DNA of 64,000 nt from Cellulomonas fimi (GCF_012952065.1 NZ_JABCJJ010000002.1:124001-188000); one strand, 5' to 3'; shown: positions 8,821-42,213, counted from the first letter of the stretch. Made by a program: numbers and translations. The notes: generated by a model from the letters alone, not told the origin.

Positions 8821-8894
8821 CGCGGGGTGGAGCAGCTCGGTAGCTCGCTGGGCTCATAACCCAGAGGTCGCAGGTTCAAATCCTGCCCCCGCTA
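8821..8894 (+). tRNA. Initiator tRNA-fMet (anticodon CAU)
   Basis: The cloverleaf is complete. The acceptor strand CGCGGGG pairs with CCCCGC but leaves position 1 (C) unpaired with position 72 (T), the initiator hallmark. The anticodon stem has the three G:C pairs GGG/CCC flanking CTCATAA, and the T-arm is GCAGG-TTCAAAT-CCTGC. CCA is not encoded. The 3' part of the gene (from 8853) is the left attachment core of the integrated element, so everything after the crossover belongs to the element while the tRNA stays intact. Confidence 0.95.
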
Positions 8895-8922
8895 CAAGTG
8901 AAGTACCAGGTCAGAGGCCCTT
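8853..8922 (+). other. attL core: 70-bp direct repeat of attR
   Basis: This segment (from CTCATAACCC in the anticodon arm to the 5' arm of the tRNA terminator) is identical over 70 nt to 42214-42283. It covers the last 42 nt of tRNA-fMet and 28 nt downstream. It marks the left boundary of the integrated element. Confidence 0.92.
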
Positions 8923-12657: not shown

Positions 12658-12887
12658 CCGCGCGGTCGACGTCGGTACCACGCCCGGCCCCACGCCCGGC
12701 CCCACCGGCGGTGATCGACGAGCGGTAGGGCCCTTGACTCGTCTGGCACTTTGGGTGGCGCCGGTCCTCAGGTTGGTATCCCTGCGGGCACACATCTTGG
12801 CGTGGAGACGACGCGACAGCGGGTCCTGGCGAGCCGGGCCTCTCGGACGCCGGGAGCAGCCGTGGTTGGCGGTGCATCGCCGTGGTG
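12658..12887 (+). other. Relaxase leader region, candidate oriT / promoter
   Basis: No gene is seen in these 230 bp. The region contains the direct repeat ACGCCCGGCCCC (twice in tandem, near 12680-12703) and a TTGACT box near 12734. MOBF relaxases commonly nick close to their own gene, so this is a reasonable place for oriT, but no known nic sequence was recognised. Confidence 0.25.
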
Positions 12888-15800
12888 ATGACGATGCACC
12901 GCCTGACCGCGGGCAGCGGCTACCAGTACCTGTTGCGCAGCACCGCGTCGGGCGACTTTGACCGTCCCGCGGCGTCGGACCTGACGACGTACTACATGGC
13001 TTCTGGGAACCCGCCCGGTCGCTGGTACGGGCGTGGGCTCGTGGGGCTCGCCAGCGGCGGCCCGGGCGAGGGTGCTCACGTCACGGAGGAGCAGATGGCG
13101 AACCTGTACGGCGAGGGCAAGGACCCGCGGACCGGCACGTCGCTCGGCCGCCCGTACCCGAGGCACACGCCCGCGGCGGAGCGGATCGCCAAGCAGGTCG
13201 CCGCCCTACCGGCCGGCCTCACGGACGAGGCCCGCGAGGCCGCGGTCGCGACCATCACCCGCGTCGAGCTCGCCAAGCGCACGCCTACAGCGGTCGCGGG
13301 GTTCGACCTGACCTTCACTGCTACGAAGTCCGTCTCCACCCTCTGGGCGGTGGCCGACGACGACACACGGGCCGCCCTCTTGGCGGCCCACCGCGCCGCC
13401 GTCGGGCAGGCGCTCGCCTTCCTGGAGGACACCGCCGCGTTCACGCGCACGGGCACCGCTGGTTGCCGCCAGCACAAGGTCTCCGGCCTCATCGCGGCCG
13501 GCTTCGACCATTGGGACTCCCGCGCGGGGGACCCGAACCTGCACACCCACCTCGTCGTCGCGAACAAGGTCCAGGGCCCCGGCGGTGCCTGGTTGTCGGT
13601 GGACTCCCGGGCGCTGCACCACGCCGTTGTGGTGGTCTCCGAGCTGTATGACGATCTGCTGGCCGACGAGGTCGCCCGTCGCCTACCGGTCCGGTTCGGA
13701 TGGCGTCATCGCGGCCCGCGCCGCTCGCCGGCGTTCGAGCTCGACGGCGTCGATGACGAGCTGATGACGGAGTTCTCCAGTCGTGCGACGCAGATAGACG
13801 AGGCGATGACGGGCGTGCTCGCCGACTTCTACGCGACCCACGGGCGCGGCCCGAACCGCATCGAGATCGTCCGGCTGCGCCAGCAGGTGACCCGCTCCGT
13901 TCGGCCGAAGAAGCACGTCACGCCCCTGGCTGACCTGATGACGCTGTGGCGCGCCCGGGCCGCGGAACGCTCCGGCAGGACGCCCGCCGAACTCACCGCC
14001 GCGGTGCTCAAGGCGTCCCAGGCCGCGCCGCTGGGGTGTGATCGCATCCCCGATGCCGTCATCGACCGGCTCGCCGAGCACACACTCGAGCAGGTGATGA
14101 CGCGGCGCTCGACGTGGACCCGGTGGAACGTCATGGCCGAGGCGGCGCGCGCCACCCGGGCGATCCGCATGACCGGCCCAGCCGACCGCGTCGCCCTCCT
14201 TGAGCGCGTCACCGACGCGGCACTTCGCTCGTGCACGAGCCTGCAGGCGCCCGACCCGCTCGTCGTCCCCGCCCGCTATACCCGGCCCGACGGCACCTCG
14301 CAGTTCACCAGAGTCGACGAAGGCCGGTACACCCACCACCAGGTGCTCGACGCCGAAGCCCGCCTCCTGGACGCCGCCACCCGCGAGACCGACGCACCCA
14401 CGACCGCCGCATGGCTCGCCAAGGCCGTCACGTCACGGCCGATCCACCGCACCGACGGCAGGACGGCCACGCTCGCGCAGGACCAGGCGGCCGCCGTCGA
14501 GCACATCGCCGGCTCGACCCGCCTCCTCAACGTCCTCGTCGGTCCCGCCGGCACCGGCAAGACCACAACCCTCGCGGCCCTCAAGGCGGCCTGGGAGCAG
14601 GGCCATGGACGCGGCAGCGTCGTCGGACTCGCCCCATCGGCAACCGCCGCCGCCGAGCTCGGCCACACCCTTGGGATCGCGTGCGAGAACACGGCCAAGT
14701 GGCTCTACGAGTCCACAGGCGCGGGCGCCGAGCGCCGCACCGAAGTCCTCGCCCGCCTCCACACCGAACGCGCCGGCGCCACGGGCTTGGACCAGCGGGC
14801 GCGGCTACGAGCCATCGACACCGCGATCACCACCCTGACCGCTCAGGGTGACCGGTTCCAGCTCCGCACGGGCCAGCTCTTGATCGTCGACGAGGCATCC
14901 CTCGCCGGCACTTTCGCGCTCGACGCCCTCACAGCCCAGGCAAGCGAAGCCGGCGCAAAGGTGCTGCTCGTCGGCGACCACAAGCAGCTCTCAGCTGTCG
15001 ACGCCGGCGGCGCCTTCCACCTCCTCGCCGAGCGCGGGCGACCAGCCACGCTGACCTCGCTGTGGCGCTTCAGCCACCCGTGGGAGGCCGCAGCGACGCT
15101 GCGCCTGCGCACCGGCGACACCCGCGTCATCGACGACTACGCCGACCACGCCCGCATCAGCGCCGGCCCTTCCGAGGCCATGTGCGAGGACGCGTACACC
15201 GCCTGGCAGACCGACACCGAACGCGGAGCCAGCGCCATCCTCATCGCCTCCGACTCACGCACCGTCGACATCCTCAACACTCGGGCTCACAACGACCGGG
15301 TCACCGACGGCCTCGTTACGGCCACCGGCGTCACGACCAGCGCCGGCACGGAGATCGGCGTCGGGGACCACGTCATCACGCGAGCAAACGACCGGCGCCT
15401 TCGCACACCCAACGGGCACGTCCGCAACGGCGACCTGTGGCAGGTCACGGCTGTCGCACGCGATGGCGCCCTGACCGTCGTGCCGCTCTCCCGCCGGGAC
15501 CGCGCAGCGAACGCGCGGGCGGACGAGGTCGTCCTTCCTGCTCCCTACGCCTCCCAGCACGTCGAGCTCGGCTACGCGACTACGACCCACCGCGCCCAAG
15601 GCATCACGGTCGATCGTGCGCATGTGCTCGCCGGGCCCGGCATGGTCCGCGAGAACCTCTACGTCGCCATGACCCGCGGCTGCTGCGACAACCACGTCTA
15701 CGTCGCCCTCGACAGCATCGAGGCCGCCTGCGACTACCCGCCCGAGCACCAGATCTCCCAAGGCGGCCGCGACGCGCTGGAAGCCATCCTCACGACGCCG

Positions 15801-16388
15801 GGTGCAGAGCTCTCCGCGACCGAGACCATCGCAGCCTCGCAGGACGAAGTGGCCTCGCCCAGGCGCCTGCTGCCCATCCGGCACACGCTCCTCGCCGACG
15901 CCGCAGCCGAGCGATGGGCCGCAGTGTTCTCAACCGTCGGGCTGACTGCGGAGCAGTGCAACCAGATCGCGACGTCGCCCGCGCGCGGGCCGCTCCTCAC
16001 CGCGCTCGAGCGGGGGCGCGCGCTCGGTCACCCGATGCACCAGGTCCTCGTGGGTCTCATCGCCGCCCGGCCGCTCGACGGACCACATCCGGCGGCGGAG
16101 ACCGCAGCGGTGCTCCACCACCGCGTGCACGAGTGGCTACGGGCGCAAACGGAGGACCCGGCCGAGGTGGCGATTACCCCGGACGCCGATGACGGCTCCA
16201 CGGACATCGGCGCACTGCTCGACCAGGTGGACGACATCCTCGCCGAACGTGCAGACGCTCTGGGTTCGGCAGCGTTCGGCAGCGTCCGCGACGCCGACCC
16301 GGCCCTCGAGGGCCACGTCCCTGCCTACCGGCCGACGACGGTTGAGCCGGTGTACCGAGCGGCAAGCGAGAGGAGCGTGACCCTGTGA
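12888..16388 (+). CDS. MOBF conjugative relaxase-helicase (TrwC/TraI-like)
   Basis: This 1,166-residue protein has an N-terminal relaxase domain with candidate nicking tyrosines in GYQYL (residues 12 and 14) and the metal-binding HUH motif in DPNLHTHLVVANK near residue 215. A C-terminal SF1 helicase follows, with Walker A GPAGTGKTT near residue 553, Walker B LIVDEASLAG near 665, and motif VI ENLYVAMTRG near residue 925. It would nick oriT, bind the strand covalently and unwind it for transfer. ATG 12888 is preferred because MTMHRLTAGSGY matches the usual start of the family; GTG 12882/12885 also exist. It overlaps the next gene by 4 nt. Confidence 0.9.
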   Translation: MTMHRLTAGSGYQYLLRSTASGDFDRPAASDLTTYYMASGNPPGRWYGRGLVGLASGGPGEGAHVTEEQMANLYGEGKDPRTGTSLGRPYPRHTPAAERIAKQVAALPAGLTDEAREAAVATITRVELAKRTPTAVAGFDLTFTATKSVSTLWAVADDDTRAALLAAHRAAVGQALAFLEDTAAFTRTGTAGCRQHKVSGLIAAGFDHWDSRAGDPNLHTHLVVANKVQGPGGAWLSVDSRALHHAVVVVSELYDDLLADEVARRLPVRFGWRHRGPRRSPAFELDGVDDELMTEFSSRATQIDEAMTGVLADFYATHGRGPNRIEIVRLRQQVTRSVRPKKHVTPLADLMTLWRARAAERSGRTPAELTAAVLKASQAAPLGCDRIPDAVIDRLAEHTLEQVMTRRSTWTRWNVMAEAARATRAIRMTGPADRVALLERVTDAALRSCTSLQAPDPLVVPARYTRPDGTSQFTRVDEGRYTHHQVLDAEARLLDAATRETDAPTTAAWLAKAVTSRPIHRTDGRTATLAQDQAAAVEHIAGSTRLLNVLVGPAGTGKTTTLAALKAAWEQGHGRGSVVGLAPSATAAAELGHTLGIACENTAKWLYESTGAGAERRTEVLARLHTERAGATGLDQRARLRAIDTAITTLTAQGDRFQLRTGQLLIVDEASLAGTFALDALTAQASEAGAKVLLVGDHKQLSAVDAGGAFHLLAERGRPATLTSLWRFSHPWEAAATLRLRTGDTRVIDDYADHARISAGPSEAMCEDAYTAWQTDTERGASAILIASDSRTVDILNTRAHNDRVTDGLVTATGVTTSAGTEIGVGDHVITRANDRRLRTPNGHVRNGDLWQVTAVARDGALTVVPLSRRDRAANARADEVVLPAPYASQHVELGYATTTHRAQGITVDRAHVLAGPGMVRENLYVAMTRGCCDNHVYVALDSIEAACDYPPEHQISQGGRDALEAILTTPGAELSATETIAASQDEVASPRRLLPIRHTLLADAAAERWAAVFSTVGLTAEQCNQIATSPARGPLLTALERGRALGHPMHQVLVGLIAARPLDGPHPAAETAAVLHHRVHEWLRAQTEDPAEVAITPDADDGSTDIGALLDQVDDILAERADALGSAAFGSVRDADPALEGHVPAYRPTTVEPVYRAASERSVTL

Positions 16389-16979: not shown

Positions 16980-18821
16980 ATGGCGTCCATGCCGGTCTAT
17001 GGTCGCGTCGTGCTCGTCATCGACTGGGACAGGTGCTCGGGTGATCCAGAGTGGGTTCGTAGTCTCGTCGAACTTCTCGCGTCCGGCCCAGCGCCCTCGT
17101 CCTCTCTCGCCCTGCGCCTCGCCATCGGTGAGCTCGAGGACTGGATGCGCGTGGCGACGTCCGAGACGTGGCGAGCTAAGGCGAACAGGCGGGCACTCGC
17201 GGCGGATCTGGAGTCGAGCGCCTCCGGCGCAGGCAGCCACCTGAGGTCAGTTCTCGCCCCCGCGCTGGAGGAGCATGTCCGGTGGGCTGTCAGTGTGTTC
17301 GCGACCGCGACAGGAGCCAAGGACGCTGCGGGCGGAAGTCTCGGCGAGACACTGCTTGGGTCCATGGTCACCCCCGACGCGGTCATTGCGACGTGGCTCG
17401 ACCTGGTCGACGCACTCCGGGATGCTGATGACGATGCCGCGGCCTGGTGCAGAGAGTGTCTCCAGTCGCAGCTGAGCGCTTGGGGAGTCGACGGTTCCCG
17501 CCGGCTGCAAGAAGTTGCCTGGTACGTCGTTGGCAACGAGTCGCGCGGCGACGTCGGCCCTATCCCATCGCTCGCCATGCGGCTCGAGCGGGCCGCCGGG
17601 GCTCTTACCAGGCGGGTGCCGGCTCGCGACTGCGTCGTGTGGCTCACCTATGAGCGCGCCGACCTGCGCGAGTTCGTAGCGACCTTTGGACCGGTCACCT
17701 TCGTGGAGGCGGACTGGTGCCTTCCGAACGCCATCGCGAGCAACGGTCACGACTTCGCGTTTCGCGATGAGCTGCGCGCCCTTGCGGCGAGCGGGCACAA
17801 CTGGAGCTTCGACGAACACAACTGGACGCCGGACAGCAGTCGTCGGCCCTATGTGGTGCTGGCGAGAGTCGAACTCGGGGAAGGGCCGACCCGCGACGCA
17901 GTTGAGGAGGCAGCTCGGGAGGTTCAACTCATGCTCGACGTCGCACGGCTTCAAGGCGGCGGCGCGGCATGGCGCCGTCGCAGCCCGTCCTTGCTCGTTG
18001 TGGATGGCGAGGTGGTCGAGGAGTGGGGGCCGCCCGGCATGGATACCGTCGACCCTCCTGACACAGGAGCGCATTACGGACGCAACGCGTTTGCTGAGTC
18101 CCTGGCCGAGCACGGTCCTCTCGTCGGGCGACTGCTTGCCACGAAGATCGCCCCGGACCTCGCTGAGGCCGTGCGGATGCTCGGTGAGGCGGGTCAAGCC
18201 GATGACCCCTGGCAACACCCCAGCGCGTCGCGCGCGATTGATGAGCGCACGGTCCTCGCCTTGCACGACGCTGCGCACGACCACCTCGCAACGTTCGGTC
18301 GCCTCGAGAACGCCAGTGAACTCGAAGAGAGGCTCGTCGAGGAGTGGCCGATGCACACATGGCGAACCGGCATCATGAGGACCATCCAGGTGTGCCTCTC
18401 GCGTCCGTTGGGGACCGATACGGAGCTCGCGCGCGCTGTCCGGGTTGATCGCATCTATCACTTCAATGTCGCCTGGGAGCGGAAAGAGGAGCTGCTCGAG
18501 CGCGTCGAAGACACCCGCAGCAGACGGATCGCGGCGCGTTGGCTGCTGAGTATCGGTGACGCCGGGACCTGCCTGCGCCTCCTTGCGGAACTCGAGAACG
18601 AGGTAGACCTGCTGGCGAAACGCTTCCAGCGCGTACGGAACGGCATTCAGCATGGAACCCCACCGTCCGCCGGCGCAGTCGCGTCAGTAATGGACTTCTC
18701 CAGGTACAGGGTGTTCGGCTTGGCTGCAGGCACAAGGACTCCTCTCGGAGATGACATCGTCACCTCACGGCAGGTGTCCGGGGAAGCGGGTCAGACTCCC
18801 TTCCCCTTTAGGCTGAGGCGT
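16980..18821 (+). CDS. Unidentified protein with C-terminal HEPN-like motif, no own stop, runs into the maturase gene
   Basis: The frame encodes about 614 residues of a soluble, mostly helical protein that I do not recognise. Near its end, FQRVRNGIQHGTPPSAGAV (around residues 562-580) has an RN-x3-HG core, the R-x4-H pattern of HEPN RNases, which usually sits close to the C terminus of such proteins. Soon after it the sequence loses protein-like character (GTRTPLGDDIVTS...). The frame then continues without a stop into the anaerobic sulfatase maturase at 18822. The likely reading is a HEPN-type gene whose last part was removed when the sulfatase cargo was joined here. A genuine fusion is less likely. 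Start choice (16980 or 16989) is uncertain. Confidence 0.55.
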
Positions 18822-20123
18822 ATGACGGCAGACGCTCGACCGGGCGGGGACGACGGCGTGAGCGCGGGCGGTCCGCCACCCGGGGTTCGGCGTCTGCCGT
18901 TCTCGGCGCTTGCGAAGCCGATGGGGGCCGCGTGCAACCTGGACTGCGCGTACTGCTACTTCTTGTCGAAGCAGCTTCTGTACGACCACGACTCCCAACG
19001 GATGTCCGAGCGGGCGCTCGAGGCGTACCTCGCCAACCTCCTGTCGTCATCGCCCGACGGCCCGGTGGAGGTGGCCTGGCAGGGTGGTGAGCCGACGATG
19101 CGCGGATTGCCCTTCTTCCGTCGCGCGGTCGCCCTGGCCGAGCAGCTGCGCCGCCCGCGGCAGCAGGTGCAGCACGTCATCCAGACCAACGGCACCTTGC
19201 TGAACGACGACTGGGGCCGGTTCCTCTCCGAGCACGGCTTTCTCGTGGGCCTTTCACTCGACGGGCCACAGCACCTGCACGACGCATTCCGGGTCAACAA
19301 GGCCGGTCGGGGTACCCACGCCCAGGTCCAGCGCGGCTGGGAGGTCCTGGCCCGTCATGGGGTGGACGTAAACATCCTCTGCACGGTCAATGCCGCGAAC
19401 CAGGACCACGCCGTAGAGGTCTACCGCTACTTCCGCGATGGGCTCGGTGCACGGTACCTGCAGTTCATCCCGGTCGTGGAACGAGTACCGGCCGAGTCGT
19501 CGGCCCTTGCCGAGCAGGGCTGGCGAGCCGGCGACCATGGTCCCCGGACGGTGCTCTACCGCCAGCACGGGGACCGGGTGACCTCCCGCTCGGTGGATCC
19601 GCGCGCGTACGGGGAGTTCCTCGTCGCGATCTTCGACGAATGGGTGTCGCGTGACGTGGGAGAGGTCTTCGTCCGCGACATCGACGTGGCGCTGGGCAAC
19701 CTCTTGGGCCAGTACACGTTGTGCGTCACGGCCCCCCAGTGCGGCACCGCGATCGCGGTCGAGCACAACGGCGACGTCTACTCCTGCGACCACTACGTCG
19801 AACCGGGTCATTGTCTCGGCAACGTCATACACACCCCGCTCCAGTCGATGCTCCAGTCCGGCCAGCAGCGCTCCTTCGGCCGTTCGAAACTGACCGCCCT
19901 ACCGACGAAGTGCCGGACGTGCCCCGTCCGGTGGGCCTGCCACGGCGGCTGCCCGAAAGACAGGTTCGCCTCGACGACGGACGGCCGACCGCCCGTCAAC
20001 TACCTGTGCGCCGGCTACTACCGCTACTACAGCCACATCCGACCCGCGCTCGAGCGGATGGCGCATCTCCTACGGGCTGGGCAGCCGGCATCAAGGATCA
20101 TGGAAGACGCTGCCCGCCCGTAG
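18822..20123 (+). CDS. Anaerobic sulfatase-maturating enzyme (radical SAM/SPASM)
   Basis: This 433-residue protein has the radical-SAM cluster motif at C38-C42-C45 (AACNLDCAYCYF), the SAM-binding QGGEP segment near residue 90, and a C-terminal SPASM region with Cys clusters (CGTAIAVEHNGDVYSCDHY; CRTCPVRWACHGGCPKDRF). Enzymes of this family oxidise the active-site Cys or Ser of sulfatases to formylglycine without oxygen. ATG 18822 fits the family start, although the upstream frame is open. It is convergent with the oxygen-dependent FGE (56 bp between stops) and near two Cys-type sulfatases, its probable substrates. Confidence 0.88.
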   Translation: MTADARPGGDDGVSAGGPPPGVRRLPFSALAKPMGAACNLDCAYCYFLSKQLLYDHDSQRMSERALEAYLANLLSSSPDGPVEVAWQGGEPTMRGLPFFRRAVALAEQLRRPRQQVQHVIQTNGTLLNDDWGRFLSEHGFLVGLSLDGPQHLHDAFRVNKAGRGTHAQVQRGWEVLARHGVDVNILCTVNAANQDHAVEVYRYFRDGLGARYLQFIPVVERVPAESSALAEQGWRAGDHGPRTVLYRQHGDRVTSRSVDPRAYGEFLVAIFDEWVSRDVGEVFVRDIDVALGNLLGQYTLCVTAPQCGTAIAVEHNGDVYSCDHYVEPGHCLGNVIHTPLQSMLQSGQQRSFGRSKLTALPTKCRTCPVRWACHGGCPKDRFASTTDGRPPVNYLCAGYYRYYSHIRPALERMAHLLRAGQPASRIMEDAARP

Positions 20124-20178
20124 CGCCCGTCTTCGCTGCAGTCTGCCTGCGCAGAAGCCGTCCTCCGGGGCGCCATCC

Positions 20179-21174
20179 TCACCTGGATACCGTCCGGAAT
20201 CCGCCGTTGGCCATCGAGGAGTCCGGTGTGTTGGACGACCTGGCGGCGTTGCGGTACCGGTTGCAGTACGAGTCGTGGCACAGGAACGACCCACCGCGCA
20301 TCACCCTTGCGGTTCCGTGCGCCGGGCCCTGTGGTGCTGCGGACGGCGAACTGCCGTAGTAGGTCGGTGAGAACCAGTCGCTGCACCACTCCCACACGTT
20401 GCCGACCGTCTGCCACAAGCCGAACCCGTTGGGTTGGTACGCGCGCACCGGTGCGGTCGTGAGGAAGCCGTCGTCCCCGGCATTCACGACCGGGAAGCGA
20501 CCCTGCCAGATGTTGCATCGCCACGTCGACGCGCCGGGTGGATGAAGTTCATCTCCCCATGGATAGCGGGCGGCCCCAAGGCCACCTCGCGACGCGTACT
20601 CCCACTCGGCCTCGGTGGGAAGGCGCCGCCCGGCCCAAGCGCAGTACGCCTGTGCGTCGTTCCAGCTGACGTGGACCACCGGATGGTCGTCGCGTCCCTC
20701 GAGGCTTGATCGCCGGCCCTCCGGGTGCCGCCAGTCCGCGCCGCGCACAGCGAGCCACCACGGAGTCGACGCCGCACGTCCGAGGACGTCGTCGGGATCG
20801 GCGGCGAGCGCCAGGTGGAACACCGCTGAGTCTCCGAAGCGTTCGGCCTCGGTTACGTAGCCGGTGTCCTCGACGAAGCCGGCGAACGCCGCGTTCGTCA
20901 CGGTGGTCGCGTCGATGGTGAACGTCTGGAGGTCGACACGGTGCACGGGCACTTCCCCGTCGGCGGCCATCCCGTCGCCGTGGTGATCCCCCATCCAGAA
21001 CTCGCCGGCAGGCACCCGGACCTGCCCGATCGCATGCTTCGCGCGGCTGGTCGGATGCCGGTCACCCGGCGGCACGGCTTCGGAGTCGGTACTCGACCGC
21101 GCAGGGGTGCAGCACGCGCCGTACGGACCACTGGTGTCCTGAGCCAAGGTGTCGACCTTCCTCTCCGCGCTCAC
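20179..21174 (-). CDS. Formylglycine-generating enzyme (FGE, SUMF1-like)
   Basis: This 331-residue protein contains the full FGE-sulfatase domain: VPAGEFWMGD near residue 54, HPVVHVSWNDAQAYCAWAG, RLPTEAEWEYA and NVWEWCSDWF. The C-terminal copper and active-site segment GGSFLCHDSYCNRYR carries both catalytic Cys five residues apart, so it should be a true sulfatase activator and not a SUMF1-fold relative. It converts the Cys of CxPxR motifs to formylglycine using oxygen. The N-terminal extension contains CCTPARS (C21-R26), itself a sulfatase-like motif. GTG 21174 is the start, divergent from lacI with an operator-like site between them. Confidence 0.92.
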   Translation of the reverse strand: MSAERKVDTLAQDTSGPYGACCTPARSSTDSEAVPPGDRHPTSRAKHAIGQVRVPAGEFWMGDHHGDGMAADGEVPVHRVDLQTFTIDATTVTNAAFAGFVEDTGYVTEAERFGDSAVFHLALAADPDDVLGRAASTPWWLAVRGADWRHPEGRRSSLEGRDDHPVVHVSWNDAQAYCAWAGRRLPTEAEWEYASRGGLGAARYPWGDELHPPGASTWRCNIWQGRFPVVNAGDDGFLTTAPVRAYQPNGFGLWQTVGNVWEWCSDWFSPTYYGSSPSAAPQGPAHGTARVMRGGSFLCHDSYCNRYRNAARSSNTPDSSMANGGFRTVSR

Positions 21175-21308
21175 ATGCCGCCCTCGCCTGCCCTGGGTCC
21201 GCGGTGGCGTCGGGGTACCGCCGCGCGCCCGTGGATCCGTGACTGACCGCGGGGGGTCTGGCGTGGGGCGGTGCTCGAGCAGCCGATACCCGCGTGGTTG
21301 TCGTCGTA

Positions 21309-21318
21309 GGATCGGTCC
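21309..21318 (+). promoter_or_regulatory. Putative LacI-family operator O1 (GGATCGGTCC)
   Basis: This near-palindrome matches the two GGATCGATCC sites before the ABC operon (one centre base differs), and all three are followed by AAG. It lies between the divergent FGE and LacI genes, 47 nt before the LacI start, and overlaps a TAGGAT -10-like hexamer, so autoregulation and FGE control are plausible. Confidence 0.6.
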
Positions 21319-21364
21319 AAGCGGCTAGCTCGTCAAGGAGCGCCCGGTTCCGGAGGGGGCACTA

Positions 21365-22408
21365 GTGGCCATGGACACGGTCCGGAGCGGACGGCGGGTG
21401 ACCCTTGCGGACGTAGCTCGCCACGCCGGCTTCTCGCGCTCGACGGCGTCGCTCGTCTTCCAGGACAGCCCGATGGTTGCAGCGACCACGAAGGCGGCGG
21501 TGCTCGCGGCCGCCAAGGAGCTCGGCTACGTCTACGACCGCCGCGCGGCCGCCTTGCGGACCCGAAAGAGCCACACGATCGGCCTGCTGATCCCCGGACT
21601 TGCCAACCCGTTCTTCGCCGCTCTGGTGCAGGCGGTGGAAGAGGAACTCGGTCCCTCCGGCTTCACTGTGCTGCTGGCCAACACACTCGAAAGGCCGGAG
21701 CGACAGAAGGCCGTGGTGGAGACCTTGCTGGAGTATCGGGTCGACGGCCTGCTCATCGTTCCGGCCATCGGCTCAGGCCGCGAAGTCCTCGACGCGATCG
21801 AGCGCTTCGCCGTCCCGCACGTGCTGCTGACACGACGGGTGGTGGGGGCTGGCGGCGACTGGGTGGGCTCGGACGACCGTCGGGGCGCGACGTTGGCGGC
21901 TGAGCACCTCGTGAACCACGGCTGCCGGTCGCTGGCGTACTTCGGCGGCCCGACGGAGACCTACGCGCGCGCCACCCGGTACGGCGGGTTCGTCGATGCG
22001 GCCCGCGCTGCTGGCCTGAGGTTCGTCGAGGAATGGTCGCGAGGAACCGAGACCACAAGCTCCGCAGGGTACGAAGCGGTTCGGACCCTGCTGCAGTCAG
22101 GTCCGCCGCCCGAGGGGGTCGCCTGCCACAGCGACGCGATCGCCTTCGGTGCCATGCGTGCACTGCGGGACGCGGGTCTCACCGTCGGCAGTGACGTGCG
22201 AGTACTTGGCTATGACGATCTCGAGCACGCTCGGTCGTGGTCCCCCTCCCTCAGCTCGGTCTCCGTGTCGAGCGAGGAGATGGGCCGTACGGCTGCGAGG
22301 CTGCTGCTCGAGAGGATCGACCACCCGAGGACTTCGGCGAGTGGCCGGACCGTCGTCTTCACCCCCACGCTCCAGGCGCGAGAGTCGTGCGGCTCGCACG
22401 ACACGTGA
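21365..22408 (+). CDS. LacI-family transcriptional regulator of the sulfatase module
   Basis: This 347-residue regulator has an N-terminal helix-turn-helix (VTLADVARHAGFSRSTASLVF, near residues 12-31), a hinge, and a periplasmic-binding-like sensor domain (IGLLIPGLANPFFAALVQAVE; VLGYDDLEHARSWSPSLSSV). GTG 21365 follows a GGAGGGGG ribosome site by 6 nt; ATG 21371 is an alternative. It precedes the ABC importer operon and probably represses it, releasing on binding the imported sulfated sugar or a product. Three GGATCG(A/G)TCC sites nearby have the central CG typical of LacI-family operators. Confidence 0.88.
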   Translation: MAMDTVRSGRRVTLADVARHAGFSRSTASLVFQDSPMVAATTKAAVLAAAKELGYVYDRRAAALRTRKSHTIGLLIPGLANPFFAALVQAVEEELGPSGFTVLLANTLERPERQKAVVETLLEYRVDGLLIVPAIGSGREVLDAIERFAVPHVLLTRRVVGAGGDWVGSDDRRGATLAAEHLVNHGCRSLAYFGGPTETYARATRYGGFVDAARAAGLRFVEEWSRGTETTSSAGYEAVRTLLQSGPPPEGVACHSDAIAFGAMRALRDAGLTVGSDVRVLGYDDLEHARSWSPSLSSVSVSSEEMGRTAARLLLERIDHPRTSASGRTVVFTPTLQARESCGSHDT

Positions 22409-22466
22409 GCCCGGCCCGGACGGCAAGCACCCCGGGCGGGCGGGCACATCGTCGTGTCCAGCCCCA

Positions 22467-22506
22467 TTGACAGGCCCGCGCCGCGTCCCTAGCCTCGGAT
22501 CGATCC
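22467..22506 (+). promoter_or_regulatory. Promoter of the ABC/sulfatase operon with LacI operator O2
   Basis: A perfect -35 box TTGACA (22467-22472) is followed after 17 bp by TAGCCT (22490-22495). The perfect palindrome GGATCGATCC (22497-22506) sits directly downstream of the -10 box. A repressor bound here would block promoter clearance. Confidence 0.7.
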
Positions 22507-22595
22507 AAGGTGACCCCGGTCACTTGGTCGTCGAAGTTGCACCGGTGTCGGCATCGTTCGTCAGCGCGGCACCACGTTCAGGGCACATCGATTTC

Positions 22596-22605
22596 GGATC
22601 GATCC
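22596..22605 (+). promoter_or_regulatory. LacI operator O3 (GGATCGATCC)
   Basis: This is the second perfect copy of the operator, 99 bp downstream of O2 (about nine to ten helical turns) and 15 nt before the start of the binding-protein gene. It shares the extended context TCGGATCGATCCAAGG with O2. The pair suggests looping or a roadblock. Confidence 0.65.
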
Positions 22606-22619
22606 AAGGGAGAATCGTG

Positions 22620-23930
22620 ATGAGAAGGCCAGTGTCTAGGCGAGTGTCGGCCGCTGTGGCCGGGTTGGCCGCTGTCGGCCTGCTGACCGCATGCAGCTCG
22701 GAAGAACCCGGGACGGATGATGGTGGCGAGACCAGCGAGCCCAGCGCCAGCCAGGTCGAGGAGATCGTCGTCGCGACCGCTGAGACGCCGTGGCTGGCGA
22801 GTTACGAGCAGATGGCGAATCTGTACCAGGAGAAGACCGGAGTGACGGTCACCCTGCAGGTCTTCCCGTTCGACGGCCTGCTCACACAGCAGGCGAACGC
22901 GGCTCAGAACGGTTCGAACGCGTTCGACGTGTTCCAGATGAACGAGCAGTGGGTCGGGCAGTTCTACGACAACGGGTGGGTGCAGCCGCTCGAGGAGGTG
23001 GACCCCGACTTCGAGTGGGACCCCAACCTCATCGAGTTCGACGGGGTCGGCCGATGGGACGCGGACGCCCGGACGACGTCCATGGACGGCGTGCCGTACG
23101 CGTTGCCGATGAACGGGAACATTCACGAGTTCATGTACCGCAGGGACCTTTACGACCAGCTCGGCCTTGAGGTACCGACGACCTGGGAGGAGGTCATCGC
23201 CAACGGCAAGGCCGGTCTGGCTGCAGGCATCGAGAACGGCTACGTGCTGCGCGGCAAGACGCCGACGTACGACTTCAGCGCGCTGCTGTTCTCCCTGGAC
23301 GGGGACTGGTTCCCGGGCGAGCAGGACGGTGACTGGACCCCGGGCGCGGACACGCCGGAGTTCCGGTCTGCGCTCGAGCAGTTCAAGGCGCTTGCCGAGA
23401 TCGGCCCAGACGCACCTCAGACCGTTGCCCAAGCGGAGGCGACCTCGCTCATGCAGGGCGGATCCGTGCTCCAGGCGACTCTCGTCTCGGCCGTGGCGGC
23501 GCCGCTGGAGAACGAGGGTTCCTCGACCGTCGCGGGGAAGATCGGCTACGCGGTCCTGCCCGGTCAGACACCGGTGAGCGGCACCTGGACCGTCGGCGTG
23601 CCTGCGGGCCTGCCGGACGAGCGTGCACAGGCCGCTTACGACTTCATCACCTGGCTGACGAGCCAGGAGGCCATGCAGAAGTGGGCCGAGGTGGGTGGCA
23701 TCACGACCCGGACGGATATCGAGAGCGACCGTCCCGAACTGCAGGTCATCATCGACTCCGCCGACATGATCCGCGGCGGCCTCCGCTACACCTTTGCACC
23801 GCTCATGCTGGAGGTCACCGACCCGGCGATCGGCGAGTACCTGGCCGGTACGATGTCGCTGGACGAGACCATCACCCGGATCCAGGACGGCCTGACCCGG
23901 GTGGTGGAGGAAGCTGGCTACGGGTCGTGA
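22620..23930 (+). CDS. ABC sugar transporter, solute-binding lipoprotein
   Basis: This 436-residue extracellular binding protein of the CUT1 carbohydrate type has a signal peptide ending in the lipobox LLTACSS (Cys near residue 24), so it is a lipoprotein anchored to the membrane. The body matches family 1 solute-binding proteins (MNEQWVGQFYDNGWVQPLEE; AAYDFITWLTSQEAMQKWAEVGG). ATG 22620 follows a GGGAGA ribosome site. It overlaps the first permease (GTGA) and is the first gene of the operon. Given the linked sulfatases, the ligand is probably a sulfated saccharide. Confidence 0.88.
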   Translation: MRRPVSRRVSAAVAGLAAVGLLTACSSEEPGTDDGGETSEPSASQVEEIVVATAETPWLASYEQMANLYQEKTGVTVTLQVFPFDGLLTQQANAAQNGSNAFDVFQMNEQWVGQFYDNGWVQPLEEVDPDFEWDPNLIEFDGVGRWDADARTTSMDGVPYALPMNGNIHEFMYRRDLYDQLGLEVPTTWEEVIANGKAGLAAGIENGYVLRGKTPTYDFSALLFSLDGDWFPGEQDGDWTPGADTPEFRSALEQFKALAEIGPDAPQTVAQAEATSLMQGGSVLQATLVSAVAAPLENEGSSTVAGKIGYAVLPGQTPVSGTWTVGVPAGLPDERAQAAYDFITWLTSQEAMQKWAEVGGITTRTDIESDRPELQVIIDSADMIRGGLRYTFAPLMLEVTDPAIGEYLAGTMSLDETITRIQDGLTRVVEEAGYGS

Positions 23931-24886
23931 CCACCACGCCGGCCCCCGTGGTCCCGACCGTCACCGGTGCTCGCACTGCGCTGCGAGCACCGGGCGGCCG
24001 GGACCCCCGTCGAATGTCCCCCTTCAAGGTGCTCTCGCTGCTCCCGCTGCTCCTCGTGCTCGTCATGCTCGTGGCCTTCCCGATCGGGCAGATGATCTGG
24101 ATGTCGTTCGGCAACGTGCGGCTTACCGCGGGCGAGCTGATCTGGGACTCCGCGGGGCTGGCCAACTACGAGCGGATGCTCGGGGACGAGACGTTCCGGA
24201 TCTCCCTGTGGAACTCCCTCGTGTTCATCTTCTTCACCGTCGTGATCACCGTGGTCCTGGGCATCGCGCTGGCGCTCGCGGCCGACCGCCTGGTACGCGG
24301 CCAGAAGCTGGTCCAGAACGTGCTTCTCTGGCCCGCCATCGTCGCCCCTGTGGTGATCAGCGTCGCGTGGCTGTTGATCCTGAGCCCGCAGGTGGGTCTG
24401 GTGAACAAGATCCTGCGGTCGTTGGGGGCATCCCCGCAGAGCTGGCTGGGCGATCCGTTCGGTGCGATGGCCAGCGTCGTCGTCATCGACGTCTGGCACT
24501 GGACGCCCATCGTCTTCCTTCTCATCTACACCGCACTGCGCTCGTTGGACCCGTCTGTCCTCGAGGCCGCGCGCATCGACGGAGCGAACTACGTCGCCAC
24601 CGTCCGCTACATCGTCCTGCCGCTGCTGACCCCGGCCATCCTCGGCGCGGTGGCGATCCGGGTCCTGATGGGCGTGAAGGTCTTCGACGAGATGTATCTG
24701 CTCACCTTCGGGGGCCCCGGGACCGCAACGACGGTGATCAGCATCTACCTGCGGTCGGTGTTCTTCGAATCCTTCCAGTACGGCTTCGGCTCCGCGCTCA
24801 GCGTGACCGTAGTCGTCCTGGTCCTCGTCGCGCTGCTCGTCGCGCTCGCGGTCCGAAGCCTGATCCGAGGAGTCCGTCGTGCCTGA
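23927..24886 (+). CDS. ABC sugar transporter permease 1 (MalF-like)
   Basis: This 319-residue integral membrane protein has about six helices, starting with LSLLPLLLVLVMLVAF, and the ATPase-contact EAA loop EAARIDGANYVATVRYIVLP near residues 219-238. Its GTG start overlaps the binding-protein stop by 4 nt, and its end overlaps the second permease by 8 nt. No ATP-binding subunit is encoded nearby, so it must share a housekeeping MsiK-type ATPase, as many actinobacterial CUT1 importers do. Confidence 0.87.
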   Translation: MTTTPAPVVPTVTGARTALRAPGGRDPRRMSPFKVLSLLPLLLVLVMLVAFPIGQMIWMSFGNVRLTAGELIWDSAGLANYERMLGDETFRISLWNSLVFIFFTVVITVVLGIALALAADRLVRGQKLVQNVLLWPAIVAPVVISVAWLLILSPQVGLVNKILRSLGASPQSWLGDPFGAMASVVVIDVWHWTPIVFLLIYTALRSLDPSVLEAARIDGANYVATVRYIVLPLLTPAILGAVAIRVLMGVKVFDEMYLLTFGGPGTATTVISIYLRSVFFESFQYGFGSALSVTVVVLVLVALLVALAVRSLIRGVRRA

Positions 24887-25721
24887 TGCCATCCACCGGA
24901 ACCACCAGGGCTCCTGGCTCGTGCGGATCCTCCTCACGGGCGCCGTCGTCTCGACCATCCTGCCGATCCTGTGGCTGCTCCTCATCGCATTCCAGCGCCC
25001 CCGCGCGATCATCTCGCCGGGCTGGACCTTCGAGTTCTCACTGGCCAACTTCGAAGAAGTCTTCGGGCCTCGCCAGGTCTACGGAGCCCAGGTCGTCAAC
25101 AGCGTCATCCTGGTGCTGGTCTCGACCGCGATCACTCTCGTCATCGCAGCATTCGCCGCTTACAGCCTGAGCCAGCTGCACTGGTCACGGCGAACGGTCG
25201 CGTCCATTCTCGGGGGCGCCGGCCTGCTCCAGGTCATCCCTCCGGTCACGCTCGTTCCTGGTCTGTTCGCGACCCTGCAGACCCTTGGCCTGAACGGCAC
25301 GTTGAGCGGCCTCATCCTGCTGAACACGGTGTTCAACCTTCCGTTCGCCGTAATCCTCATCAAGTTCTACTTCGACACGCTGCCCACAGAGTTGCGGGAG
25401 TCGGCAGCGATCGACGGTGCGAGCGAGTTTGCGACCTTCCGCCGGATCATGCTGCCCCTGGCGGCGCCCGGGATCGCCTCCGTCGCCATCTTCACAGCCA
25501 TTCAAGTCTGGAACGAGTTTCTCTTCGGCCTGGTCTTCACGACCGGCGGGCGGGAAGCCCCGATCACCGTGGGGATCGCAACGCTCATCCAGCCACAGGA
25601 GATCAAGTTCGGACCCATGGCGGCGGTCGGGGCCGTCACCGCCGTCCCGATCATCATTCTTGCGATCGTGGCGAACCGGCACATCGTGGCCGGGCTGACA
25701 CGCGGCGCTGTCAAAGGCTGA
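24879..25721 (+). CDS. ABC sugar transporter permease 2 (MalG-like)
   Basis: This 280-residue permease has six predicted helices and the EAA motif ESAAIDGASEFATFRRIMLP near residues 173-192, followed by LAAPGIASVAIF. The GTG start at 24879 lies within the end of permease 1. Together they form the channel of a carbohydrate importer. The first sulfatase follows 26 bp later, so uptake and desulfation are probably co-transcribed. Confidence 0.87.
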   Translation: MPDAIHRNHQGSWLVRILLTGAVVSTILPILWLLLIAFQRPRAIISPGWTFEFSLANFEEVFGPRQVYGAQVVNSVILVLVSTAITLVIAAFAAYSLSQLHWSRRTVASILGGAGLLQVIPPVTLVPGLFATLQTLGLNGTLSGLILLNTVFNLPFAVILIKFYFDTLPTELRESAAIDGASEFATFRRIMLPLAAPGIASVAIFTAIQVWNEFLFGLVFTTGGREAPITVGIATLIQPQEIKFGPMAAVGAVTAVPIIILAIVANRHIVAGLTRGAVKG

Positions 25722-25747
25722 CCACACTACCGATCGGGAAAGTGCAG

Positions 25748-27073
25748 ATGACGACATCCCTGACCAACATTGCGCTGATCCACTGCCACGACCTCGGGGA
25801 CTGGCTCAGCTGCTACGGGTGGAACGCCGTGCCCAGCCCGAACCTCCAGGAGCTGGCGGACACCTCGATCGTCTTCGACAAGGCGTTCGCGACCTCCCCC
25901 CTGTGCACGCCTGCCCGTTCCTCGCTGTTCACGGGCCGGTTGCCGCACGCGAACGGGCTCATGGGGCTCGCACACGACGGGTGGCGGTACGGCCCCGGCG
26001 TGACTACCCTGCCGGAGCTGCTCGCGAGGGCCGGTTACCGCACGGCCCTGCTCGGGCTGCAGCACGAAGACATGGACGCCCGAGTGCTGGGCTACGACGA
26101 GGTCCATGGGCTCGGCTTCCTCCCGCGCGCACTCGAGGTCGCCCGGCTGACTGAGCGCTGGGTGGAGACGCGCCGTGCTCACGCGGGTACGCCGTACTTC
26201 ACTGCGATCGGCCTGTGGGAGGTGCATCGGCCCTGGCCGAACGAGGACTACGACCCGGTCGATGCGCAGTCCGTCACGGTCCCCCCATACCTGCCGGACA
26301 ACGAGCACAGCCGACGTGACATCAGCGGGTTCTACGGTGCAATCCGGCAGATGGACGAGGCCGTGGGCCGCATCGTCCGCGCTCTTCGCTCAGGACCCGG
26401 CGGCGCCGACACGCTGATCATCTTCACCACCGATCATGGTGTCGCGTTTCCGGGGGCCAAGAGCACGCTGTACGACGCCGGTGTCAAGGTCGCGATGATC
26501 GTCAGCCCTCCGCCGTCCTGGGGCCTATCCCCGGGCCGGCGCTCCGAGCTCGTCAGCCACCTGGACGTAGCCCCGACGCTGCTCGAGCTCGTCGGCGTGG
26601 ATCCGCCCGAGGACCTCGAGGGCGTCAGCATCCTCAACCACATCAAGGGCAGCCCGTCCGGAACAGGCGACCGGGTGCTTTTCCTGGAGAAGACCTACCA
26701 CGACCGCTACGACCCGATTCGCGCGGTCCGGACCGCCTCGGCGAAGTACATCCGCAACTTCGTGCCCGGCCCCAGGCTTCCCCTGTCGCTGGACCTCGAA
26801 CGGAGCGAGACACGGCAGGGAATGGGGGACGCGCACCTGGCACCGCGACCGGAGGAGGAGCTCTACCTGCTCGAGGACGACCCGTGGGAGCTGGACAACC
26901 GTGCCGAGGACCCGGAGTGCGAAGCCCTCCGGAAGGACCTTGCGGCGCGGCTCGTCGACCATCTCGAGCACAGTGACGACCCCGTTCTCCGCGGTGACGT
27001 CCCCCCGCCAGGACCGCCCTGCAACCCTCGGACGGCGTGCTCACCACAAGCCGCAGCTGCGGCAGGAAGGTGA
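25748..27073 (+). CDS. Cytosolic Cys-type sulfatase 1 (CTPAR)
   Basis: This 441-residue type I sulfatase has no signal peptide. The activation motif is PLCTPARSSLFTGR with the modifiable Cys at residue 53. Other family features are the N-terminal metal-site segment HCHDLGD and the FTTDHGVAFPGAKSTLYDAGVKV segment near residue 226, which resembles heparan N-sulfatase (SGSH)-type enzymes. It needs its Cys converted to formylglycine, and both maturases are encoded nearby. The cytosolic location fits desulfation after import. Substrate (O- or N-sulfated sugar) cannot be read from sequence. ATG 25748 is preferred over GTG 25742. Confidence 0.88.
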   Translation: MTTSLTNIALIHCHDLGDWLSCYGWNAVPSPNLQELADTSIVFDKAFATSPLCTPARSSLFTGRLPHANGLMGLAHDGWRYGPGVTTLPELLARAGYRTALLGLQHEDMDARVLGYDEVHGLGFLPRALEVARLTERWVETRRAHAGTPYFTAIGLWEVHRPWPNEDYDPVDAQSVTVPPYLPDNEHSRRDISGFYGAIRQMDEAVGRIVRALRSGPGGADTLIIFTTDHGVAFPGAKSTLYDAGVKVAMIVSPPPSWGLSPGRRSELVSHLDVAPTLLELVGVDPPEDLEGVSILNHIKGSPSGTGDRVLFLEKTYHDRYDPIRAVRTASAKYIRNFVPGPRLPLSLDLERSETRQGMGDAHLAPRPEEELYLLEDDPWELDNRAEDPECEALRKDLAARLVDHLEHSDDPVLRGDVPPPGPPCNPRTACSPQAAAAAGR

Positions 27074-27079
27074 CGTCGC

Positions 27080-28882
27080 ATGCGCGCCATCGTGGTCATG
27101 TTCGACAGTCTTAACCGCCGTTACCTGCCGCCCTACGACCCCGACTGCGGAACGGCCGCCCCCAACTTCGAGCGCCTGGCCCGTAGCAGTGTCCGCTTCG
27201 ACAACGCGTACGGCGGCAGCATGCCGTGCATGCCGGCGCGGCGTGAGCTCCATACCGGCAGGTACAACTTCCTCCATCGTGGCTGGGGGCCCATCGAGCC
27301 CTTCGACGACTCCGTCCCCCAGATGCTGGGCGAAGCCGGTGTCACCACACACCTGGCGACCGACCACATGCACTACTGGGAGGACGGCGGCGCCACTTAC
27401 CACACGCGGTACGGGACCTGCTCCCTCATCCGCGGACAGCAGGGTGACCCCTGGAAGGGACGCGTGGCGGACCCGGAGGTCCCGGACAGCCTGCGCGTCC
27501 AGCGGAGTGGTACGTGGCGTCAGGACCGTATCAACCGTGAGTACCTGAACGGTCTGGCCGACCACCCCCAGACCCGCACCTTCGGCGCCGGCCTGGAGTT
27601 CGTCCGGGACAATGCGCGTGAGCAGAGGTGGTTCGTGCAGATCGAGACGTTCGATCCGCACGAGCCGTTCTTCAGCGACCCTTCGTTCCTCGACGTGTAC
27701 GGCGGCGACGACGTATCGGTCCCGGAGTACGACTGGCCGGACTACGCCCAGGTCGTCGAGAGCGACGCGGTCCGGGCCAACGTCCGCAGGCACTACGCGG
27801 CGCTGGTGTCCATGTGCGACGCGTCGCTGGGCAGGGTGCTGGACGCGATGGACGAGTACGCGCTCTGGTCGGACACGCTGCTGATCGTCTGCACCGACCA
27901 CGGCTTCCTCCTGGGCGAGCAGGGCTGGTGGGGCAAGAGCGTCCAGCCCTGGTACGACGAGACGATCCACACGCCGTTGTTCGTCTGGGACCCCCGGACC
28001 GGCGTACGCGGTGAACAGCGTGACCGGCTGGTCCAGACGATCGATCTCGGCCCCACGCTCCTAGACTTCTTCGGCGTCGACCGGACCCCGGACATGCAGG
28101 GGGCGTCGCTGCGTGAGGTGATCGAGGCCGACCGACCCGTGCGCGAGTACGCGATCTTCGGAGCGTTCGGCGGCCACGTGTCGATCACCGACGGTCGGTA
28201 CGTGTACATGCGGGCTTGCCGGGAACCTGGGAACCGGCCCCTGTACGAGCACACCCTCATGCCGACCCATATGCGCGGCTTCTTCAGCATCGATGAGCTG
28301 TCGGCTGCCACGCTCGACGAAGGGTTCTCCTTCACCAAGGGTGTGCCGGTGCTGCGCACCGAGGGGCACGTCTTCACCGACCCCTTCGCCTTCGGAACGC
28401 TGCTGTTCGACCTGGAGAACGACCCGCGGCAGCAGCACCCCCTCGTCGACGACGAGACGGAACGTCGGATGGCCAGTGCTCTGGTGCAGATGCTCAGGCA
28501 GAGCGAGGCACCGGGGAGTCAGTACGAACGGCTCGGGCTGCCCCAGGTCGGCCCCGTCGAGGACAACCACCTGCTGTGCGCCGCCCAGCACGAGCAGGTC
28601 CTGCTCGCGCGGCGGCAAGCACCGCGGATCGAGGAGTTCCCGGACTCGCCCTTCAGCGTCCGGACCCCGGTCAAGGAGCTGCTGAACCACCCCCCGGCCG
28701 CCGAGATCCTGCGCCGGCACTGCACGCCGGTCACGGTCGGCCCCTTCGGTCGCGTCTGCGGAGAGATCCCGCTGTACCGGGCCGCAGCCGGCCTTGTCGG
28801 CGTGCTGCCCTGGGACGTGCTCCGCGTGATCGCGGCCGACCTGGCGGAACTGCCGCCCGCGGATGCGCCCACCGCTGGATGA
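27080..28882 (+). CDS. Cytosolic Cys-type sulfatase 2 (CMPAR)
   Basis: This 600-residue sulfatase starts MRAIVVMFDSLNRRYLPPY, with the N-terminal metal Asp in MFDSLNR. It carries the activation motif MPCMPARRELHTGR with the Cys at residue 50, and CTDHGFLLGEQGWWGK near residue 272. It lacks a signal peptide. It lies 6 bp after sulfatase 1 with a GAAGG ribosome site, so the two are co-expressed. It is only distantly similar to sulfatase 1, implying a different sulfate position or sugar. The phosphonate-monoester-hydrolase/sulfatase superfamily is broad, but CxPxR points to formylglycine use. Confidence 0.87.
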   Translation: MRAIVVMFDSLNRRYLPPYDPDCGTAAPNFERLARSSVRFDNAYGGSMPCMPARRELHTGRYNFLHRGWGPIEPFDDSVPQMLGEAGVTTHLATDHMHYWEDGGATYHTRYGTCSLIRGQQGDPWKGRVADPEVPDSLRVQRSGTWRQDRINREYLNGLADHPQTRTFGAGLEFVRDNAREQRWFVQIETFDPHEPFFSDPSFLDVYGGDDVSVPEYDWPDYAQVVESDAVRANVRRHYAALVSMCDASLGRVLDAMDEYALWSDTLLIVCTDHGFLLGEQGWWGKSVQPWYDETIHTPLFVWDPRTGVRGEQRDRLVQTIDLGPTLLDFFGVDRTPDMQGASLREVIEADRPVREYAIFGAFGGHVSITDGRYVYMRACREPGNRPLYEHTLMPTHMRGFFSIDELSAATLDEGFSFTKGVPVLRTEGHVFTDPFAFGTLLFDLENDPRQQHPLVDDETERRMASALVQMLRQSEAPGSQYERLGLPQVGPVEDNHLLCAAQHEQVLLARRQAPRIEEFPDSPFSVRTPVKELLNHPPAAEILRRHCTPVTVGPFGRVCGEIPLYRAAAGLVGVLPWDVLRVIAADLAELPPADAPTAG

Positions 28883-28968
28883 GGCCGCGGCACGACCTGA
28901 CCATTGAGAGGTCGGGCACGTGGCGGTGCCCGAAGCTGCCCCGAGACGCCAGACACCCGAGGAGACCG

Positions 28969-30288
28969 ATGCCCGCTGGCCCTGCAAGAGCGTCGCTTGC
29001 GTCCATGGTCAGGGTCGGCCTGATCGGATTCGGCGGCGGCAGCGCGCTCATCCCCCTCATGGAGGACGAGCTGGTGGCCCGTCGTCGCATCCTCGATCGG
29101 GCGACGTTCAGCAGGCACATCGTGGTTGCCAGCATCACCCCCGGCGCCCTGCCCGTGAAGCTCGGTGGCCTGGCGGGGACCACCGTCGGCGGAGCCTGGC
29201 TGTGCCTGACGATGGCGACACTGGTCTCGCTTCCGGGAACCGCCGCCACCGTCGGGATCCTCTCCGCGGTCCGCTCCGGTGGGCAGGGGGTGATCCGCTA
29301 CGTCGAGCTGGCGTCCGTGGGAGTCACGGTCTTCATCATCGCGCTCCTGGTGCACTACGTTGGCAAGGTCCTGACGTCCGAGGGGTCCGGCTGGCTCGTC
29401 GCCGCCGGGATCGCCACCCTGTCCTTCCTCGCCACAGGCGCCGCCGACGCCGCTGAGTTCATCGGTCACCTGATCGGACGGCAGTGGCAGCCGTCGGTCC
29501 CGCGACTGACCGCGGTCCAGCTCGTCGCCTCAGCGCTCGTCATCATCGCTCTTCGGGCCGCTCTGAGGCGCGGGCACCCGGCACGGCTGCCGGCCATCGG
29601 GCACGATGGCGGGCTCGGCGCCGCGGCGGTCCTCCGGTCCACCGCACTGCTGCTGAGCGTGGCCGCTGGCGCGACCGCGGCGGCAGCCCTGGTCGGCGGG
29701 AAGGAGGCGCTGGCGCTGATGGCCCTGGTAGCGCTGTCGACACTCACCTCCTTCGGCGGGGGGGAAGCATACGTCGGGGTCGCAGACGGGTTCTTCGTCG
29801 GTGGCGGGCACCTGAGCGCCGACGTCTTCTACAGCCAAGTCGTTCCCGTCGCCAATGCGCTCCCGGGCCCGATCTTGGTGAAGATCGCCGCCGGCGTGGG
29901 ATACGGCGCCACCGCGCCCACCCAGGGAGCGACGGCCGCGTGGGTGGTCGCGGCTGCCGGCGCCCTCCTGGCCGTCACCGTGGGAACCGCCGTCGCCGTC
30001 CTCGTCCTGGGCGCGTACCACCGTGCCCAGCGCTCCGCCGTCGTACGGGACATCGGCCTCTACATCCTCCCCGTCATCTGCGGCCTGCTGATCACGACGT
30101 CGCTCTCCATGCTCAACGCCGGGGCGGATGTGTCGATTCGCGCCGGGGTCCAGCCGTGGCTCACGCTGTGGCTCTCGCTCGCCGCGACCGTCCTCGTCAC
30201 GTGGCTGCGCCACCGCAGGTCTGTGCACGACGCCGTCCTGATCCTCCTGTGCGGTGCCGCCTCGCTCGCCGCGATGACGGCGGCGTGA
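28969..30288 (+). CDS. CHR-family chromate/sulfate-type anion transporter
   Basis: This 439-residue polytopic protein has two homologous CHR halves: GFGGGSALIPLMEDELV with SITPGALPVKLGGLAG in the first, and SFGGGEAYVGVADGFFV with NALPGPILVKIAAGVGYG in the second. Members export chromate, and their physiological anion is often taken to be sulfate. It follows sulfatase 2 by 86 bp in the same direction, with its own AGGAG ribosome site. In this setting export of sulfate released by the cytosolic sulfatases is the simplest role; chromate resistance as an unrelated passenger is the alternative. A small hairpin (28893-28898 with 28909-28914) sits in the gap. Confidence 0.82.
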   Translation: MPAGPARASLASMVRVGLIGFGGGSALIPLMEDELVARRRILDRATFSRHIVVASITPGALPVKLGGLAGTTVGGAWLCLTMATLVSLPGTAATVGILSAVRSGGQGVIRYVELASVGVTVFIIALLVHYVGKVLTSEGSGWLVAAGIATLSFLATGAADAAEFIGHLIGRQWQPSVPRLTAVQLVASALVIIALRAALRRGHPARLPAIGHDGGLGAAAVLRSTALLLSVAAGATAAAALVGGKEALALMALVALSTLTSFGGGEAYVGVADGFFVGGGHLSADVFYSQVVPVANALPGPILVKIAAGVGYGATAPTQGATAAWVVAAAGALLAVTVGTAVAVLVLGAYHRAQRSAVVRDIGLYILPVICGLLITTSLSMLNAGADVSIRAGVQPWLTLWLSLAATVLVTWLRHRRSVHDAVLILLCGAASLAAMTAA

Positions 30289-30938: not shown

Positions 30939-31003
30939 CGTGTACCCCGATCCTTCGGTCGACCCGTACTATTCGACTTGCTGCGACTATACGGGAGATC
31001 TCC

Positions 31004-36625: not shown

Positions 36626-36626
36626 G

Positions 36627-36986: not shown

Positions 36987-37002
36987 GTCCGCTCAAGCGT
37001 GA

Positions 37003-42055: not shown

Positions 42056-42073
42056 CGCGACCACCGTGTCCCA

Positions 42074-42095
42074 GATGTGGGCGCAATGTGGGCAG
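42074..42095 (+). other. Putative integrase arm-type repeats, right end
   Basis: GATGTGGGC, 3 nt, then ATGTGGGC: the same paired repeat as 8955-8976, here directly upstream of the integrase start and 119 nt before the attR core. Integrase binding here could also repress its own promoter. Confidence 0.5.
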
Positions 42096-42213
42096 ACGTA
42101 GCCGACCACCGGCGGACCGGCGCGAACGCAGGCGTACGCATGAGGGGCGCTGACGTGCGCAGATACATGCAGCGAGCCTACTCAGGCGGGGTGCGGGCAC
42201 AACAGGGGCTGCA

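Follow-up and report, generated by a model that had tools for sequence, protein, structure and literature searches.

A putatively LacI-controlled sulfatase operon adjoined by two mechanistically different maturases on a probably mobilizable element of Cellulomonas fimi

A 64,000-nucleotide stretch of the Cellulomonas fimi genome (GCF_012952065.1, NZ_JABCJJ010000002.1:124001-188000; hereafter the window) harbours a sulfatase gene block in which an oxygen-dependent formylglycine-generating enzyme (FGE) and a radical-SAM/SPASM anaerobic sulfatase maturase (anSME) are encoded side by side. This block is probably, though by no means certainly, a LacI-controlled sulfatase operon carried on a mobilizable element, with FGE as its own maturase and anSME as a later-joined enzyme that acts when oxygen is scarce. 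According to this model, a small sulfated compound, most probably a sulfated sugar, would be imported, its sulfate would be removed in the cytoplasm by two formylglycine sulfatases (Sul1 and Sul2) and the released sulfate would leave the cell through a CHR-family exporter. In air, Sul1 and Sul2 would be matured by FGE. The anSME, apparently derived from the host's own wider lineage and attached later, at an IS3 scar, beside the operon's FGE end, would most likely convert the same CxPxR cysteine when oxygen becomes too scarce for FGE; both its expression and its action on Sul1 and Sul2 are predictions of the model. The relevant features are as follows (window coordinates, strand).

8821..8895, plus: tRNA-Met (CAT), integration site (ARAGORN)
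8853..8922, plus: left att repeat, 70 bp, identical to the right copy
12882..16388, plus: MobF (TrwC-type) relaxase/helicase (NF041492, 227 bits against a cut-off of 100; PF08751)
16980..18715, plus: truncated plasmid-type gene reading into the anSME frame (similar to plasmid hypothetical proteins)
18716..18799, plus: IS3-family transposon end remnant, 84 bp (Cellulomonas plasmid NZ_CP081863.1)
18822..20123, plus: anSME (TIGR03942; 4K36; clade with Actinotalea/Xylanimicrobium)
20179..21174, minus: FGE (PF03781; 2Q17; sister to the G071 FGE, see below)
21307..21320, no strand: LacI-type operator O1 (TAGGATCGGTCCAA), before lacI, at the same place in G071
21365..22408, plus: LacI-family regulator (PF00356, PF13377)
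22495..22508, no strand: LacI-type operator O2, directly downstream of the promoter-like pair TTGACA-18-TAGCCT
22594..22607, no strand: LacI-type operator O3, before the solute-binding protein gene, conserved in G071
22620..23930, plus: solute-binding lipoprotein (SBP) of a carbohydrate ABC importer (PF01547; ATG start by inspection)
23924..24886 (start approximate), plus: ABC permease 1 (PF00528)
24879..25721, plus: ABC permease 2 (PF00528)
25748..27073, plus: Sul1, Cys-type sulfatase, CTPAR (PF00884)
27080..28882, plus: Sul2, Cys-type sulfatase, CMPAR (PF00884)
28966..30288 (start approximate), plus: CHR-family transporter (PF02417)
40904..42109, minus: tyrosine integrase, just inside the right att repeat (PF00589, 2.6e-27)
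42214..42283, plus: right att repeat, 70 bp

Both maturases look catalytically complete from their sequences. The anSME scores 422.8 bits against the NCBIfam equivalog TIGR03942 (cut-off 349) and, when aligned with the solved anSME 4K36, its C38, C42 and C45 correspond to C15, C19 and C22 of that structure. The auxiliary (SPASM) cluster cysteines and the CD motif with its conserved aspartate also match 4K36, and thus the CX3CX2C motif, SPASM cysteines and aspartate that characterize anSMEs are all present. FGE matches PF03781 at 277 bits, has Streptomyces coelicolor FGE (2Q17, E 8e-135) as its best solved relative and keeps both active-site cysteines of the family in a CHDSYC motif that aligns with 2Q17. 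These comparisons bear out the first-pass annotation, which had described a radical-SAM maturase with a C38/C42/C45 cluster and an FGE with both catalytic cysteines. The stop codons of the two genes are 55 bp apart, both maturases lie within ~2.4 kb and the Cys-type sulfatases are located ~7 kb downstream of them.

Sul1 and Sul2 each combine a PF00884 domain with a CxPxR motif, as do Cys-type S1 formylglycine sulfatases. The nearest solved relatives of Sul1 are S1_8 sulfatases and that of Sul2 is a choline-sulfatase, the latter a weak match; no signal peptide was evident by eye on either protein. The importer genes are accompanied by no ABC ATPase gene within the sulfatase block, and the CHR-family transporter is a probable sulfate exporter. 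The two sulfatases, LacI regulator, importer and exporter listed by the earlier annotation were all found in place, with Pfam matches. CHR genes were also observed at distances of up to 10 kb from anSME/sulfatase genes in five of 80 surveyed loci (L017, L023, L024, L031 and L033), which belong to Propionibacteriaceae and Actinomycetaceae, and in none of the FGE/Sul2 loci viewed; this recurrence near anSME is suggestive only of a role in sulfate export. The block accounts for every sulfatase and maturase found in the genome: the assembly, which is 99.97% complete, has two PF00884 proteins, a single anSME and a single PF03781 protein, none of them elsewhere. With no further sulfatase encoded, neither maturase has an evident client apart from Sul1 and Sul2, and for the same reason their CxPxR cysteine is the most likely target of anSME.

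The palindrome TTGGATCGATCCRA, allowing up to two mismatches, occurs at three sites in the window (21307, 22495 and 22594). Counting both strands, this amounts to six matches where 0.57 are expected, a number reached in none of 100 shuffles. The positions of O1-O3 are also kept in G071, a genome from another family of the same order (loci L103, L121 and L122), amid otherwise diverged intergenic DNA. The simplest reading of this arrangement is that LacI represses the importer-sulfatase operon and lacI itself, possibly with looping. Control of FGE by LacI is uncertain because the conserved block sits on the lacI side, although the O1 region is common to the divergently transcribed FGE. A genome-wide search with the exact operator pattern, an overly strict form, matched the lacI-side site only. 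Near anSME, the palindrome scan of the window found no LacI operator, and a promoter/terminator scan identified no consensus promoter at this gene and nothing above chance.

The same G071 genome provides the closest counterpart of the operon. Its FGE, LacI, SBP, two permease, Sul1 and Sul2 genes match those of the window in order and orientation and encode proteins of 77-88% identity, and window positions 20189-21036 and 21299-28866 align to it at ~80% nucleotide identity. This homology stops at the FGE end and at the Sul2 end. Unlike the window, G071 possesses FGE without any anSME at E<=1e-60 and, following Sul2, carries a gene that reads, from a translation judged by eye, as a TauE/SafE-type exporter (L122:880-1614) in place of CHR. 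The FGE tree places the window enzyme as sister to that of G071 with a support of 97. The anSME has a separate ancestry: its nucleotide sequence is 76% identical to that of Actinotalea and, on the evidence of a five-member set that includes Actinotalea, Xylanimicrobium and a metagenome-assembled genome (support 97), it belongs to a Cellulomonadaceae/Promicromonosporaceae clade. Its nearest relatives, 73-75% identical, are encoded by Actinotalea sp. M2MS4P-6 (L003 and L004), where a Sul2-type sulfatase (60%) lies 5 kb from the L004 gene; in contrast to the window, no FGE was found in that genome, nor any comparable ABC/LacI operon. Proteins of the Sul2 family are located near anSME where no FGE was detected (Actinotalea L004, 60%; Bifidobacterium L044, 50%); in G071 and further Micrococcales they are neighbours of FGE. 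Because the family occurs beside each enzyme, either maturase can plausibly serve a Sul2-type sulfatase. At a locus in another genome of the host's family (L113, genome G485), an anSME gene and a Sul2 relative beside it are matched in broken pieces only, which suggests decay of an anSME/sulfatase pair. In terms of these ancestries the block is a patchwork and not one ancestral package. We infer, mainly from G071, that the operon came first and anSME later, an order that would be reversible had G071 lost its anSME.

The DNA upstream of anSME is a composite. Residues 8-576 of the open reading frame (ORF) that starts at 16980 are 25-27% identical to free-standing hypothetical proteins of 639-640 residues encoded on Streptomyces and Arthrobacter plasmids, and this truncated gene has no Pfam match. 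It is followed by the IS3 remnant, whose 84 bp are 96.4% identical to the terminus of an IS3 element on the Cellulomonas plasmid NZ_CP081863.1 and which is separated from the anSME start codon by a gap of 23 bp. The remnant, together with the plasmid-protein matches, indicates that the plasmid-type gene was cut short by an IS end, which adjoins anSME. The 1047-codon ORF from 16980 is thus a chimaera of truncated plasmid-type gene, IS3 end and anSME, which automatic annotation would read as a single fused protein. A true fusion enzyme of 1047 residues was considered and rejected, as its residues 1-576 correspond to plasmid proteins that stand on their own and residues 570-608 to the IS3 end, and as the extension is absent from the anSME relatives examined. 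Since the first ~580 codons belong to the unrelated truncated gene and the IS3 remnant comes after them, the start at 18822 chosen in the first-pass annotation is a sensible one. Taken together, the anSME-free operon of G071, the different ancestry of anSME, the IS3 remnant preceding it and the lack of a nearby operator argue for FGE as the cognate maturase.

The rarity of the pairing was assessed in 80 related anSME loci, which share 50-75% identity with that of the window and in some cases have short flanks. Only at one of them, that of Tessaracoccus oleiagri CGMCC 1.9159 (L027/L097), is FGE located no more than 10 kb from anSME, and an FGE-like gene was found anywhere (E<=1e-40) in 18 of 78 of the genomes that contain such loci. 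Among 395 genomes of the class, anSME is present in 10 and FGE in 97, with both only in the window's own genome; among 150 genomes of the family the respective counts are seven, 48 and two, the second genome having them on different contigs. Mutual exclusion of the two enzymes is not claimed, because the absence of FGE from all nine other anSME genomes of the class has a chance probability of ~0.1. Outside this sample, Kiritimatiellota anaerobes are described, in excerpts from two reports, as having one anSME and several FGE-domain genes per genome (PMC6388578, PMC10880615); they resemble the host in possessing both maturase types, but differ in being anaerobes with many sulfatases, and the excerpts mention neither adjacency nor a mobile element. 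No description of an adjacent FGE/anSME pair was found in the open-licence literature. With regard to whether such pairs are already common, co-occurrence in one genome is therefore known and described, whereas adjacency is rare among the 80 related loci.

One alternative, favoured by the first-pass annotation, is a purpose-built dual-maturase cassette whose two enzymes were selected together for any oxygen regime and travel as one unit. The low frequency of adjacency lends this view some support, as it suggests that the arrangement is not a default, and the T. oleiagri locus lends it more. There, adjoining FGE and anSME genes are likewise followed by genes for a related SBP, two permeases and Cys-type sulfatases; however, in contrast to the window, all genes run in one direction, FGE and anSME overlap by ~4 bp and no operator of the window's type is present. 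Identity to the window is 61-62%, with the sulfatases 27-28% alike, and the T. oleiagri FGE has the CHDSYC motif. As the trees put both T. oleiagri enzymes apart from those of the window, the pairing has arisen on two independent occasions. This locus demonstrates that coupled pairs exist and counts against a graft as the explanation. Nevertheless, the claim that the two maturases form one packaged unit is not supported by G071, which has the whole FGE operon without anSME, and is further weakened by the different ancestry of anSME, by the IS scar in front of it, by its lack of an operator and by the fact that the nearest relatives of FGE and anSME differ, neither having the pair. A jointly selected cassette is consequently judged unlikely. 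A broader proposal, that selection has repeatedly favoured dual-maturase loci, put together on two or more independent occasions (in this element and in T. oleiagri), because they confer transferable desulfation with or without oxygen on facultative actinobacteria, can be entertained only tentatively.

A second alternative is that anSME is a passenger of IS recombination, unexpressed or unused, with FGE performing all of the maturation. This would account for an anSME gene preceded by a truncated ORF and IS remnant and devoid of operator or promoter matches, and G071 manages with FGE alone. Against this, the anSME frame is open, its catalytic residues are all present, its only possible sulfatase clients adjoin it and its dN/dS relative to Actinotalea is low (0.21-0.23), although this value averages both branches and is compatible with a recent loss of function. 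The corresponding values for FGE, Sul1 and Sul2 relative to G071, likewise averaged over both branches, are 0.14-0.19. An idle passenger thus seems a rather improbable explanation. That anSME instead serves as the maturase of an unrelated peptide, in the manner of other radical-SAM/SPASM enzymes, is very improbable, for its matches to many RiPP maturase models are weaker and every such model listed falls far under its own cut-off, whereas the anSME equivalog cut-off is passed, and an unsystematic look noticed no precursor peptide beside the gene. The later-joined anSME of the preferred model is probably a functional, oxygen-independent backup, anSMEs being known to accept Cys-type sulfatases (PMC3920027), and oxygen-independent desulfation by this operon is plausible.

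With two sulfatases, one maturase of each type and no others in the genome, this organism offers a natural test of FGE/anSME interchangeability within one cell. The locus also illustrates how mobile DNA mixes and matches maturases around the same sulfatases, and ties what appears to be a complete LacI regulon with its operators to a putative sulfate-ester uptake pathway.

The block resides on a 33.4-kb region that is an integrated, probably mobilizable element, in agreement with the earlier annotation, which had placed it on an integrated element. The region is inserted at tRNA-Met and bounded by 70-bp exact att repeats nested in a 148-bp repeat of 82% identity, the right-hand att being a copy of the 3' part of the tRNA gene. 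It carries both the integrase expected of an integrative element and, in MobF, the relaxase expected of a mobilizable one; type IV secretion genes, which would define an integrative and conjugative element, were absent from the element ORFs scanned, a set that excluded some small ORFs. The UPF0182-tRNA-Met gene order occurs with neither an adjoining integrase nor a DUF3644 homologue in Actinotalea, Xylanimicrobium, Demequina and one Micrococcales genome, and the neighbouring UPF0182 protein is 66-67% identical to its Actinotalea and Xylanimicrobium counterparts, which puts the host close to Cellulomonadaceae/Promicromonosporaceae. The G+C content of the cargo is 68%, against 73% in the flanks. 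Immediately inside the left att end is a gene for a DUF3644 protein (9225-10358), followed by overlapping ORFs with no Pfam or NCBIfam match (10395-12161). A second cargo at 30444-38921 comprises MarR, AcrB-type RND pump, zinc alcohol dehydrogenase, HxlR, DoxX and SDR genes and includes an IS481-type transposase gene (35533-36567), and an IS5-type transposase gene lies at 39645-40265.
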